63,930 nucleotides of DNA from Drouetiella hepatica Uher 2000/2452 (GTDB lineage: Bacteria > Cyanobacteriota > Cyanobacteriia > Elainellales > Elainellaceae): positions 1 to 63,930 of the forward strand of contig JAHHHD010000030.1 in the NCBI GenBank assembly GCA_019359505.1. The letters run 5' to 3'. This document shows positions 9,190-57,257 of the stretch, piece by piece. Each line of letters starts with the position of its first letter. Position 1 is the stretch's first letter. The notes beneath the pieces are model-generated. The model was not told the DNA's origin. It saw nothing but the letters and a program-made list of their open reading frames with translations, and ran no database searches. The translations under genes and the position numbers were made by a program.

Positions 9190-9260
9190 TCGATTAAGCC
9201 GTGCCGCGTATCTTGCCGATGTGTCAAGATGGGAAAATGTTTCTTTTAAGCGATCGGTTC

Positions 9261-9680
9261 ATGGCTTTAGATTCTTCTCTTGATGCTGCCCTTCAACAAC
9301 TCCGCGAGGTGCGCCTTAAGCTGCTGCGCTTGCATAAAGCGCTCTTGGAGTCAGAACGAGTCACTTACGAACAGTCTTATGGGCGAATTGCGTCTAGCGG
9401 CGAATTTTTTCGCTTAGTTGTCGATCACGAATGGTTTAGCTGGCTGCGCCCCATATCTCAGTTCATTATCCAAATGGATGACGTTATCCACGCTAAAGAG
9501 CCTGTGGAATTGCAGCAGGTCAATAGTTTGCTGGAGCAGGCGAAAATGATGCTTCAGCCTGTTGAAGAGGGTACGTCAATGGAAAAACGCTATTACCAAG
9601 CCATTCAGCGTGATCCTGATATTGCTCTGATGCATGGAGAAATTTCTTATCTATTGCACCGCTCAAAGCCGTTAAATTAG
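9261..9680 (+). CDS. Conserved-looking hypothetical protein, helical
   Basis: 139 residues if it starts at the ATG at 9261 (MALDSSLDAALQQL); an in-frame ATG at 9237 and a GTG at 9201 are alternatives. The protein is predicted mainly helical: a leucine-rich amphipathic stretch (residues 5-30), the segment WFSWLRPISQFIIQMDD, then a Gln/Glu-rich stretch and HGEISYLLHR. No catalytic motif or membrane segment is seen. The family looks familiar from bacterial hypothetical proteins, but I cannot name a function. Confidence 0.7.
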   Translation: MALDSSLDAALQQLREVRLKLLRLHKALLESERVTYEQSYGRIASSGEFFRLVVDHEWFSWLRPISQFIIQMDDVIHAKEPVELQQVNSLLEQAKMMLQPVEEGTSMEKRYYQAIQRDPDIALMHGEISYLLHRSKPLN

Positions 9681-9886: not shown

Positions 9887-11530
9887 ATGAACCTTGAAGA
9901 TCTAGAGCAATTACGGGACTGTTGCCGCGATCAGGAAGCCTTTGAACGGATCAGGAAAACTTGGGTCGCTAAGCATCTGGCTCGGACAGCGCAGCTTGAG
10001 CAAAAAAATGAGCGACAAAAGTCACTGCTTCGCGTCATCACTAAGATTCGTGAAACGCTTGAACTGGAGGCTGTCTTTAAAACGACTGCGACCGAAGTTC
10101 GACAGCTTTTGAATGCCGATCGGGTAGGGGTATTTCGTTTTTACCCAAATTCAGGTTGGAATGATGGAGAGTTTGTCTCAGAAGATTTGTTGCCGCAGTA
10201 TAGCTCAGCCTTGGCTGCTCGCATCCATGATCACTGCTTTGGAGAACACTATGCGGCTGATTATCATCGGGGGCGAGTTCAGGCGATCGCAGATATTCAT
10301 GCAGGACAGTTGAGCGCTTGCTATGTTGAGGTACTCAACAGCTTTCAGATTCGAGCTAATTTGGTGGTGCCTCTGCTGCTGGGCAGCCATCTCTGGGGGC
10401 TGCTGTGTGTGCATCAGTGTGCTGCACCGCGTCAGTGGCAGCCTGATGAAGTTGAGTTTGCCCAGCAGATTGCCCTACAGCTTGGAGTAGCCCTGCAACA
10501 GGCAGAATTGCTAGAGCAAACTCAACGCCGAGCAACAGAAGCTGCTGAAGCGCTAGAAATGCTGCAAAAAAGTCAGAGCCAGCTCATTCAAAACGAGAGG
10601 ATGTCTAGCCTGGGTCAGTTGGTGGCAGGAATTGCCCATGAAATTAACAACCCGGTCAATTTTATCCACGGCAATTTAACCCATGCCAGCCGCTACGCCC
10701 AAAATCTGATTGACTTATTGGCGCTTTACCAGATGGAACATCCTCGGCCCAGTCAGGGCTTGAGCGATCGCCTTGAGGAAGTTGACCTAGACTTTTTGCG
10801 GGTAGATTTCCCAAAAATTCTGTCTTCTATGCAGCTTGGAGCCGATCGCATCCGTCAAATTGTGCTGTCGCTGCGTAATTTTTCTCGGCTAGATGAAGCC
10901 GAAATGAAGGCTGTCGATATCCATGAGGGGATCGACAGCACTTTGATGATCTTGCAGCATCGGCTGAAGCTGAGAAACGACAGCACAGGAATTGTCGTAG
11001 TCAAAAACTATGGCAATTTGCCGCCTGTGGAATGTTATCCCGGTCAACTCAATCAGGTTTTTATGAATTTGTTGAGTAACGCGATCGATGCCCTAGAGGA
11101 GTCGGAAGGAAACAGATCGCAAGGCAGTGATTTGCTAGAAGGTAATCCGCCCAAAAGCAATTCGCCCAAAAACAATTCGCTAGACGCGCCGCTCCAAATC
11201 ACAATTTGTACTTTAATCATTCCAGGAAATGATCAAGGGAGCCTCTCGCGAGCCGTGATTCAGATTAAAGACAATGGTTTGGGCATTCCACACGCTTTGC
11301 AGTCTCGTCTTTTCACTCCGTTTTTTACGACTAAGCCTATAGGTAAAGGAACAGGATTGGGCTTATCCATTAGCCATCAAATTGTAGTAGAACGGCACGG
11401 TGGCGATCTCCAGTGCTATTCTCAGCCCGGTCAAGGAACAGAGTTTTGGATTGATATTCCGGTTCAGCAGAGCGTTCATTCAGTGCTGAAGGCAGATGTT
11501 GCAGCCAGTTCAGTAGAACGGTGTCCCTAG
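9887..11530 (+). CDS. GAF-domain sensor histidine kinase, candidate DXCF cyanobacteriochrome
   Basis: 547 residues. A short N-terminal helical part leads to a GAF domain (about 58-206) and a histidine kinase. The GAF has a DHCF motif (Cys117) and a second Cys145 in SACYVEVL, 28 residues apart, the same spacing as the two bilin-linking cysteines of DXCF cyanobacteriochromes. The residue after Cys145 is Tyr instead of the usual His. The kinase has the H-box GIAHEINNPVNF (His251), the N-box MNLLSNAIDALEE, DNGLGIP and GKGTGLGLS. A Ser/Asn-rich insert (about 405-430) follows the N-box. No response regulator is adjacent. Kinase identity is sure; bilin binding is inference. Confidence 0.9.
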   Translation: MNLEDLEQLRDCCRDQEAFERIRKTWVAKHLARTAQLEQKNERQKSLLRVITKIRETLELEAVFKTTATEVRQLLNADRVGVFRFYPNSGWNDGEFVSEDLLPQYSSALAARIHDHCFGEHYAADYHRGRVQAIADIHAGQLSACYVEVLNSFQIRANLVVPLLLGSHLWGLLCVHQCAAPRQWQPDEVEFAQQIALQLGVALQQAELLEQTQRRATEAAEALEMLQKSQSQLIQNERMSSLGQLVAGIAHEINNPVNFIHGNLTHASRYAQNLIDLLALYQMEHPRPSQGLSDRLEEVDLDFLRVDFPKILSSMQLGADRIRQIVLSLRNFSRLDEAEMKAVDIHEGIDSTLMILQHRLKLRNDSTGIVVVKNYGNLPPVECYPGQLNQVFMNLLSNAIDALEESEGNRSQGSDLLEGNPPKSNSPKNNSLDAPLQITICTLIIPGNDQGSLSRAVIQIKDNGLGIPHALQSRLFTPFFTTKPIGKGTGLGLSISHQIVVERHGGDLQCYSQPGQGTEFWIDIPVQQSVHSVLKADVAASSVERCP

Positions 11531-11588
11531 AGGGATTTGTCTCTGAAGATTAGCTCAGGTGCTCTAGAATTGCCTGTACGATCGAAAG

Positions 11589-12455
11589 ATGAGTTTTCGA
11601 TTGGGCTGCGCCATTTGGGCATACAAAGAATGGGTGGGGGAATCGGCTGGATCTCTGTTTCCGGTGGGAAGTCGCGCTACCGATTTTTTGCACCTCTACA
11701 GCCGCCGTTTCTCCACGGTAGAAGGCAACACGACATTTTATTCTATTCCTGATGCTGCTACAGTGCAGCGCTGGGTTGCAGAGACTCCGGCAAGCTTCAA
11801 GTTTTGCCTAAAGCTGCCGCGAGATGTGACGCATCAGGGCTTACTGACGCCCGCTATTCCCCAGGCGATCGCTTTCCTAGAGCAGGTGCAGGGATTAGGC
11901 GATCGGTTAGGGCCGTTCTTCGCTCAGTTGCCGCCTAGCTACAGTCCCGACCGTCTAGATGACTTACGCTGCTTTTTGACGGCTTTACCCCGTCGGCGCT
12001 TTCAGTTTGCCCTAGAAGTTCGCCATCTGGATTGGTTCAAAGAGCCTCACGTTCGTGAACTCAACGCCATGCTGACAGACTTGGGTGTGGGACGTGTCCT
12101 GCTGGATACGCGCCCGATCTACGATTGCCCGGATAATCCTCAGATTGCTTCCGAGCGCAGAAAGCCGCAGTTGCCCTTACAGCCTGTTGTGACCGCAAGC
12201 TTCAGCCTGGTTCGCTACATCAGCCATCCCAATCAGGATCTAAACCAGCGGTATCTTCTAGAATGGACTCAGCAGATTGACCTATGGATACAGCAGGGAA
12301 TCCAGATTTACTTCTTCGTGCATTGCCCGATCGAAGTCCATTCCCCTGGAAATGCTCGATATTTGCAGCTGCTGCTGGAGGAGCAGGGCGTTTCTGTGCC
12401 GCCGCTACCTTGGAACGCGCTAGAATCTCCCCCGACTCAGCTCAGCCTCTTCTAG
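11589..12455 (+). CDS. DUF72 family protein
   Basis: 288 residues of the DUF72 (YecE-like) TIM-barrel family. Characteristic elements are the opening RLGCAIWAYKEWVG, the NTTFYSIP motif (about residues 49-56), FKFCLKLPRDVTH and the C-terminal IYFFVHCPIEVHSPGNA. Biochemical function is not established. The gene starts 58 bp after the histidine kinase and may be read with it. Confidence 0.9.
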   Translation: MSFRLGCAIWAYKEWVGESAGSLFPVGSRATDFLHLYSRRFSTVEGNTTFYSIPDAATVQRWVAETPASFKFCLKLPRDVTHQGLLTPAIPQAIAFLEQVQGLGDRLGPFFAQLPPSYSPDRLDDLRCFLTALPRRRFQFALEVRHLDWFKEPHVRELNAMLTDLGVGRVLLDTRPIYDCPDNPQIASERRKPQLPLQPVVTASFSLVRYISHPNQDLNQRYLLEWTQQIDLWIQQGIQIYFFVHCPIEVHSPGNARYLQLLLEEQGVSVPPLPWNALESPPTQLSLF

Positions 12456-55159: not shown

Positions 55160-55320
55160 TAGGCAAGTCGTGTTTCCTCATCTCATCTGCTAATGGATTG
55201 TTGATGGCTTAAAGGCTGTGTGAATCTTTCAAGCCATCAACAACCAACGTGTTATTCGTACTCTCGCTACAGTATTTCCCGATCGCCTCTCTTCCCTATG
55301 ACATCCTGCCGATCACTTTC

Positions 55321-56583
55321 ATGCTGCCTAAAGTCTTAAAACCGCTCGTTTCACAGCCTCTCAATCATCCATTTCGCCTGTTGCTTTATTTGGAGTGGCT
55401 GTTGCTGGGATTTGCGAGCTTATCCCAAATTTTACCTGTTCCGTTTGATGTAGCTTTACGGTTACCGGGGCTACCTTTGCTGTGGATTTTTATCTTTGGG
55501 CTAATGGGTCTGAGGTTACCAACTGAGCGATCGCGTCATCAGGCTCTGTATATTGGAGCAGAGTTTGGCTTAATTTGGCTAACGATTGTGACAGGGGGAG
55601 CCTTTGTCACTCTACCCATACTGATAGCGATCATCATGATCCGAAGCTGTCAAATGTTTCAGCGGTCAGGGCGGTTAGGCGTTGCGATCTTAACTTTCGT
55701 AGGGCTTCTGTTGGTCACTGCCCAACAGAGTCAGATGCAAGATCCAATGTTGGAAGCCTTCAAGAATATGCAGACTAAAGCGTTGCCCAGCGACGCTGAG
55801 ATTTTACCGCTTAAGTTCACTGTAGCTTTCTCCTTTGGGCTGTTGATATTTGCCCTGTTGCTACTGGTCAATAGCCTATTGGCAGAGCATGATAGCCGCA
55901 CACAATTGACGATCGTCAATGATAAACTGCGTCAGTACGCCCAAAGCGCTCAAGACCAGGCGACCTTGCAAGAGCGCAACCGCATTGCCCGCGAAATTCA
56001 TGACACGCTGGGACATGCGCTGACCGCCCAGAGCATCCAGCTTGAAAATGCGCTCATGTTTTGCCCAACCGATGCCGAAAAAACTCAGGCTTTTCTGATC
56101 GAAGCCAAACAGCTCTGTTCTCAGGCCCTACATGATGTGCGGCAGTCGGTGGCAACATTGCGATCGAATCCGTTGCTCGGTCGTCCATTGCAGGAGGCAA
56201 TTGCCCTTGCCATTCAAGAATTTCATCAAACGACAGGTATTACTCCTACCCATACTCTTCATCTCTCCAGCCCTTTGTCCGCCGACATCAGCACGACGCT
56301 CTACCGCATCATTCAGGAGGCGCTGATGAATATCTACAAGCACAGCAGCGCAACGCAAGTCGCTATTCATCTGCAAGAGAGTGAGAAGGAAATTACGCTA
56401 TGGATTGAGGATAACGGCTGCGGGTTTCATCCTGACCAAAACACAACTGGATTTGGCATCCAGGTTATGCACGAGCGAATTTTGGCAATGAATGGCGAGT
56501 TTCATCTGGTCAGCCAGCCCGGTGCCGGATGTTTGATTACCGCGCAGGTTCCTCTCGATCGCCGATCGCGGAGGACGCTATGA
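55321..56583 (+). CDS. NarX/LiaS-type sensor histidine kinase
   Basis: 420 residues from the ATG at 55321; an in-frame GTG at 55249 would add 24 residues. Five or six N-terminal membrane helices without a large sensory domain (to about 190), a short coiled coil, then a HisKA_3 domain ([20 protein letters not shown], phospho-His in REIHDTLGH) and HATPase ([22 protein letters not shown]). It probably senses membrane state. Its stop overlaps the ATG of the response regulator by 4 bp. Confidence 0.92.
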
Positions 56584-57257
56584 TTCGGGTGCTGTTGGTA
56601 GACGATCAGCAAATCATTCGGCAAGGACTGCGAAGCTTGCTAGATGCCAAGCCCGATCTTCAGGTCGTGGGCGAAGCCGAAAATGGGCAGGCGGCAATTT
56701 CTCTGCTAGAACGTTGGGCGATCGATCCTGGTTCAACGCCCCCGCCTGATTTAGTGCTGATGGATATCCGGATGCCCGTCATGGATGGAGTCACCGCCAC
56801 TCGGCTAATCGGTGAACAGTTTCCTGAGATTAAAGTTTTGGTGCTCACCACATTTGATGATGATGAATATGTGCTGCAAGCTATGCGATTTGGAGCAAAG
56901 GGCTATCTACTCAAAGACACCCATTCTGAAGAGCTGGCTCAGGCGATTCGATCGATCCACAAAGGCTGCACCCACATGGGTCCTGGCTTGTTTGAAAAAG
57001 TGATCGCCATGTCTGCGCCTGCTTCTCAGCCGATCGCCCAACCCCCCGAAATTATGGCGCTAACCCTGCGAGAACGGGAGGTGCTACGGCAAATTGTCTC
57101 AGGAGCCAGCAACCGAGAAATTGCCGAAGCGCTATACATCTCTGAGCGCACCGTCAAAAATCACGTGACCAGCATTCTCAGCCGATTAAACCTGCGCGAT
57201 CGCACCCAGGCCGCCCTTTTTGCCAGCGCTTTTTTGCCCCACAAAAACCCCCATTAA
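56580..57257 (+). CDS. NarL-family response regulator
   Basis: 225 residues starting at the ATG that overlaps the kinase stop (ATGA). Receiver with [13 protein letters not shown], phospho-acceptor in [15 protein letters not shown], and LLKDT; C-terminal LuxR-type helix-turn-helix ([20 protein letters not shown]). Partner of the kinase. The flanking MacAB-like and DevBCA operons are candidate targets (inference from position). Confidence 0.94.

Follow-up and report, generated by a model that had tools for sequence, protein, structure and literature searches.

The GAF domain of TePixJ (PDB 4glq, 4fof, 3vv4) is a blue/green, dual-cysteine cyanobacteriochrome domain whose cysteines, C494 and C522, are 28 residues apart (excerpt of PMC6955287). 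The dual-cysteine cycle is established for this protein: the second cysteine adds to C10 of the bilin, the conjugation is shortened and blue light is absorbed; on illumination ring D rotates and this bond is broken. The histidine H523 seems to shift, making room for the photoproduct, and Q526 is described as near the moving bilin (excerpt of PMC6955287).

The published work that we found on the replacement of this histidine by tyrosine concerns red/green domains, for which the term “CY motif” is used (excerpt of PMC9378818), and fluorescent tags. In crystallised miRFP670nano (PDB 6mgh), engineered from NpR3784, the H87Y residue stacks in parallel on a biliverdin covalently bound to Cys86, and N117H is given as the reason why ring D no longer rotates (excerpt of PMC6336887). 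The stacking of Y87 is described again for miRFP670nano3 (excerpt of PMC10357936). NpF2164g5, a natural cyanobacteriochrome of the red/green lineage known to us from its description, also carries the CY motif; it is highly fluorescent, and the photoconversion of both NpF2164g5 and miRFP670nano is given as undetectable (excerpt of PMC9378818). For SPI1085g3 C448S, the same excerpt reports that the His-to-Tyr change (C448S_CY) raised biliverdin binding to 65% and the fluorescence quantum yield to 0.14, blue-shifted the absorption by ∼14 nm and slowed dark reversion ∼12-fold, with photoconversion kept. The equivalent histidine of AnPixJg2_BV4, His322, forms hydrogen bonds to the propionate of ring B and to a water close to ring D, and heterogeneity has been connected with its protonation (excerpt of PMC8156171). 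Family, motif and substitution are already known; among the matches listed in our search of the open-access literature we saw no characterised DXCF domain with Cys-Tyr, and one may exist.

Kinase gene and photosensor domain

The gene described here lies at positions 9887–11530 of the forward strand of the window, i.e., the whole stretch of 63,930 nucleotides that was analysed. It starts with ATG and encodes a GAF sensor histidine kinase of 547 residues, and the antisense of 9887–11530 is riddled with stop codons. Residues 59–203 (10061–10495, + strand) form a GAF domain that is assigned as a DXCF-type cyanobacteriochrome photosensor from Pfam (PF01590, E 4.6e-24), PDB matches and an AlphaFold model. 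The DXCF motif, D115-H116-C117-F118 (10229–10240, + strand), holds the second cysteine, and the canonical bilin cysteine C145 is followed by Y146 (codons TGC TAT, 10319–10324, + strand), 28 residues separating C117 from C145. The segments GRVQAIADI and RANLVVPLL begin at residues 129 and 156 of the translation. The two cysteines, their spacing, Tyr146 and the two segments had been named in the original prediction and were found in the ORF translation. We also considered that the GAF domain could be a mere coincidence of motifs, which is ruled out by the Pfam match together with PDB matches down to E 7.5e-47.

The HATPase_c domain (residues 387–527, 11045–11467, + strand) is over its Pfam cut-off and contains box motifs that we take to be N, G1 and G2. 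A HisKA dimerisation and phosphoacceptor stretch (residues 242–265, 10610–10681, + strand) includes HEINNP and scores 22.2 bits against a Pfam cut-off of 26.9; its His251 is likely to be the phosphorylated histidine. The assignment as a histidine kinase is thus made with HATPase_c over the cut-off, the box motifs present and HisKA under the cut-off.

The domain shares with TePixJ the DXCF motif, the 28-residue spacing of the cysteines and the predicted fold, and D115 to C117 correspond to TePixJ D492–C494 in an alignment made via a paralogue. The two differ in that H523, Q526 and DPCF of TePixJ are replaced by Y146, V149 and DHCF here, and in that the TePixJ chain is named a methyl-accepting chemotaxis protein, whereas the present one is a kinase. 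As V149 stands at the position of Q526, the pocket is not that of TePixJ; this, like the HisKA score under the cut-off, counts against the reading preferred below.

Among solved structures, the GAF domain is closest to cyanobacteriochromes and to proteins engineered from these. The top PDB match by sequence, 6oap (E 7.5e-47), has a title that refers to a green-light absorbing Pg state, and we take it to be a cyanobacteriochrome. AlphaFold2, with the GAF domain and 19 relatives as input, gave a model with a mean pLDDT of 87.2 and a pTM of 0.85. The model aligns to TePixJ (4glq) with Z 23.2 and rmsd 2.0 over 149 residues, and to miRFP670nano (6mgh) with Z 23.9 and rmsd 1.4 over 147 residues. By their titles, the 50 PDB structures among the fold matches listed are cyanobacteriochromes, phytochromes and derived fluorescent proteins. 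An alignment to characterised DXCF domains and a structure prediction had been proposed as checks of the original prediction; the cysteine spacing agrees with that of TePixJ, and the model matches both 4glq and 6mgh.

In the sequence alignment the pocket residues D115, F118, Y126, R130, C145 and H176 correspond to D56, F59, Y67, R71, C86 and H117 of miRFP670nano, and D56, F59, Y67, R71 and H117 are described as holding the bilin in miRFPnano proteins (excerpt of PMC10357936). The canonical cysteine lies in the helix that follows the GR.QAI.DI segment. Cys86-Tyr87 of miRFP670nano is shared at the aligned place, whereas the protein differs in its red/green lineage, in a Tyr replacing the DXCF cysteine, in binding biliverdin and in being engineered and not photoswitching. 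Among the DXCF-type domains sampled (see below), D115 is kept in 43/43 domains with Tyr after the bilin cysteine and 128/129 with His, Y126 in 40/43 and 124/129, R130 in 31/43 and 88/129, and H176 in 39/43 and 124/129. The pocket residues are about as well kept in Tyr domains as in His domains.

The host genome contains one heme oxygenase match and three bilin reductases, which are over the curated NCBIfam cut-offs for 15,16-dihydrobiliverdin, phycoerythrobilin and phycocyanobilin:ferredoxin oxidoreductase; we take these to be PebA, PebB and PcyA, respectively. The PebA-kind and PebB-kind genes are adjacent (L183, G000:C85:27499-28943) and the PcyA gene is elsewhere. The same contig carries, at C85:15021-16091, a gene for a pair of GAF domains, of which one is DSCF.

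Sequence, predicted fold and context are in good agreement with the dual-cysteine DXCF cyanobacteriochrome kinase that had been predicted. The gene product is most likely a soluble histidine kinase of this type, which would attach a bilin and undergo a photocycle.

Candidate role of Tyr146

We consider it probable that the dual-cysteine kinase keeps its bilin at Cys145 and that Tyr146 stacks on the bilin and stabilises it. Cys145 would hold, at ring A, phycocyanobilin or the phycoviolobilin formed from it, and Cys117 would reversibly attack C10 to give a blue-absorbing and a green-to-orange-absorbing state, the two photostates setting the activity of the HisKA/HATPase kinase. The ring of Tyr146 would most likely lie flat on rings B and C, in place of a titratable, hydrogen-bonding histidine; a tyrosine should be incapable of His-like titration near neutral pH, but can stack. 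As the tyrosine would stack and the histidine is removed, the pigment would be kept, but with slower dark reversion, more fluorescence or less photoconversion. The motif, the fold match, the conservation, the ancestry of the change and the bilin supply genes are computed, while the attachment of the bilin, its photocycle, the direction of kinase control and the effect of the tyrosine are what we infer.

Because of the Cys-Tyr precedents we expect, by analogy, that the pigment is covalently bound, that a photostate is stabilised and that the light response of the kinase is longer-lived or weaker than in orthologues with His. The transfer to a DXCF domain is an extrapolation, since the precedents are red/green and mostly bind biliverdin, and are not DXCF domains with phycoviolobilin. 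As all eight loci with the same gene pair (see below) keep His, the tyrosine could also be a recent allele of slightly harmful effect, which counts against our reading. The suggestion that the tyrosine could alter tuning fits what has been published on this substitution in red/green cyanobacteriochromes.

It is also conceivable, though we think it unlikely, that the tyrosine locks the dark state. The bilin would then be covalently bound as in NpF2164g5, and, as the domain would hardly photoconvert, the kinase would no longer be light-switched but be constitutively on or off. The CY motif, high fluorescence and undetected photoconversion of NpF2164g5, likewise undetected in miRFP670nano, point in this direction, but C448S_CY still photoconverts (excerpt of PMC9378818), and miRFP670nano has other changes, such as the N117H that is blamed for its lost ring D rotation (excerpt of PMC6336887). 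A locked state overlaps with the end of our preferred reading at which Tyr146 makes the domain photoconvert less, and the probabilities that we attach to the readings overlap as well.

Cys-Tyr among DXCF-type domains and origin of Tyr146

GAF domains were gathered from 182 loci by means of a profile built on 11 DXCF domains. Of 567 confirmed matches, the best 80 make up the named loci, which are biased to this group, and the search patterns were written without the Cys+1 site. Before counting we excluded rows shorter than 130 aa, duplicates and those with an E-value above 1e-10. This gave 182 distinct DXCF-type rows, with Cys-His in 130, Cys-Tyr in 44, Cys-Leu in two, Cys-Phe and Cys-Gln in one each and the canonical cysteine absent from four. 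Removal of rows at least 97% alike left 180, with 129 Cys-His, 43 Cys-Tyr, four with another residue and four without the canonical cysteine. A histidine in this place is usual for DXCF cyanobacteriochromes but does not define them. As three of the 43 Cys-Tyr rows are of a DTYL type in the MAFFT alignment, Tyr-Leu replacing Cys-Phe, the strict count is 40. The canonical cysteine is present in 43/43 Tyr rows as compared with 129/133 His rows; the four domains that lack it have His in 4/4 cases and Tyr in 0/4.

On a maximum-likelihood tree built without the Cys+1 column (“quick” search, ∼170 columns, DXCF-type rows only), at least 19 changes between His and Tyr are needed. This number is the minimum on one best tree, and 200 shuffles of the labels gave 33–43 interchanges with a mean of 38.5. 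Among the domains sampled, the genome that holds the window has five Cys-Tyr and five Cys-His DXCF-type domains and two without the cysteine (30 of its 38 GAF matches), genome G003 has three Cys-Tyr, 12 Cys-His and one Cys-Leu (part of 60 GAF matches), and the incomplete genomes G001 and G002 together have one Cys-Tyr, five Cys-His and one without the cysteine. With 43 of 180 domains, at least 19 interchanges and several cases in each of two genomes, Cys-Tyr is a common and recurrent state of the DXCF-type class in our sample, which suggests that nature uses His-to-Tyr often in these domains. The rarity of Cys-Tyr implied by the original prediction was thus wrong, and its frequent recurrence, absent from that prediction, is the more interesting part.

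We tentatively raise the idea that Cys-Tyr DXCF domains may represent a large, repeatedly evolved functional state, in which the His/Tyr site would dial the lifetime of the photostate or the signalling threshold, not colour, and of which the window kinase would be a fresh single-base example. If so, this state would cover about a quarter of the sampled dual-cysteine domains, and the Cys-His sister orthologues would be ready controls for the window kinase. A comparison of independent pairs on the tree, made to detect residues covarying with Tyr, gave only three pairs on supported branches; it has no power and we claim nothing from it.

Several loci (L108, L112, L114, L115, L118, L133 and others) contain GAF spans of ∼190 aa that are labelled SECV, SKCS, HECS or QECS in the DXCF position and have Cys-Tyr in the bilin position, and the proteins concerned often also carry a DHCF Cys-Tyr domain. 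These labels are probably an alignment artefact. One such row has an insert with a cysteine followed by DTYL and resembles the insert-Cys cyanobacteriochromes (PMC5240096).

A Cys-Tyr paralogue (L025/L064, G000:C51 and G003:C11) is 93% identical between two species, and 96.5% in the GAF domain, with a dN/dS of 0.101 and a dS of 0.34. As two other gene pairs have a dS of 1.28 and 1.56, a recent exchange between the lineages is likely. The 96.5% identity was considered as a sign of strong conservation of Cys-Tyr, but this is undercut by the low dS, and we retain the dN/dS alone.

The window domain is the sole Cys-Tyr member of a clade of 38, the other 37 being Cys-His (SH-aLRT 93; some inner branches weakly supported). 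The original prediction had named a placement among non-binding GAF domains as a refutation; the domain lies inside this Cys-His clade, on a tree that consists of DXCF-type rows only and contains no spectrally characterised reference by name. Its nearest relatives, from the same genus (G002 and G003), both have His; the whole kinases of these orthologues (L032 and L033) are 84% and 75% identical to the window kinase and share its DUF72 neighbour, but differ in being Cys-His. They form with the window kinase a natural set with which to ask for the role of the residue in a sensor kinase. In all eight loci that pair a related kinase with an adjacent DUF72 gene (L032, L033, L034, L035, L036, L039, L041 and L058; 57 loci searched for neighbour genes) the matching GAF domains are Cys-His, L039 having two such domains. 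The codon for Tyr146 is TAT, whereas the four orthologues in which this codon was read have CAT or CAC. Since the clade and all eight gene pairs otherwise have His and the codons are CAT or CAC, we conclude that Tyr146 is a derived and recent one-base change. A plasmid collection of 72,556 records yielded nine relatives, the best with 44.8% identity.

By a plain Nei-Gojobori count the GAF domain has a dN/dS of 0.109 against G002 and 0.078 against G003, at high dS (0.62 and 1.30, respectively), and the kinase half has 0.096 and 0.120. The GAF domain is thus under purifying selection with a dN/dS of about 0.1, much like the kinase half, which speaks against relaxed constraint.

It is doubtful that Tyr146 is neutral or sporadic variation, or a one-base assembly error, with the domain behaving like its Cys-His orthologues. 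Such an origin would be consistent with a single CAT to TAT transition seen only in this genome among the 38 clade members and with a draft assembly of 87 contigs. However, Cys-Tyr recurs in 43/180 domains, and two species have both kept it in the L025/L064 paralogue, at a dN/dS of 0.101; Tyr is therefore at least an allowed state. The loss of the chromophore that had been offered as the other outcome, leaving an apo-GAF domain whose kinase answers to something else, is very improbable and we reject it: although the histidine at this position is listed for AnPixJg2 as one of five residues critical for keeping the cofactor stable (excerpt of PMC8156171), Cys145 and the checked pocket residues are kept, the GAF domain is under purifying selection, all 43 sampled Tyr domains keep the bilin cysteine while the four DXCF-type domains without it all have His, and a crystallised Cys-Tyr protein is still bonded to its bilin (excerpt of PMC6336887).

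Neighbouring genes

A gene for a DUF72 protein (11589–12455, + strand; Pfam PF01904, E 2.1e-56) begins 58 bases downstream of the kinase. Kinase and DUF72 gene (9887–12455) form a conserved pair: of the 57 loci searched, 8 have both, with 65–91% identity of the DUF72 proteins. Among the literature matches listed, titles and the starts of abstracts held nothing useful on DUF72 with cyanobacterial kinases. Upstream of the kinase, an ORF of 159 aa (9201–9680) has no Pfam match and was found, among the 57 loci, only in the same-genus loci L032 and L033, with 81–83% identity. Further along the window, at 55249–57257, the mechanically called ORFs of a HisKA_3 histidine kinase and of a GerE-type response regulator have 55 bases in common.
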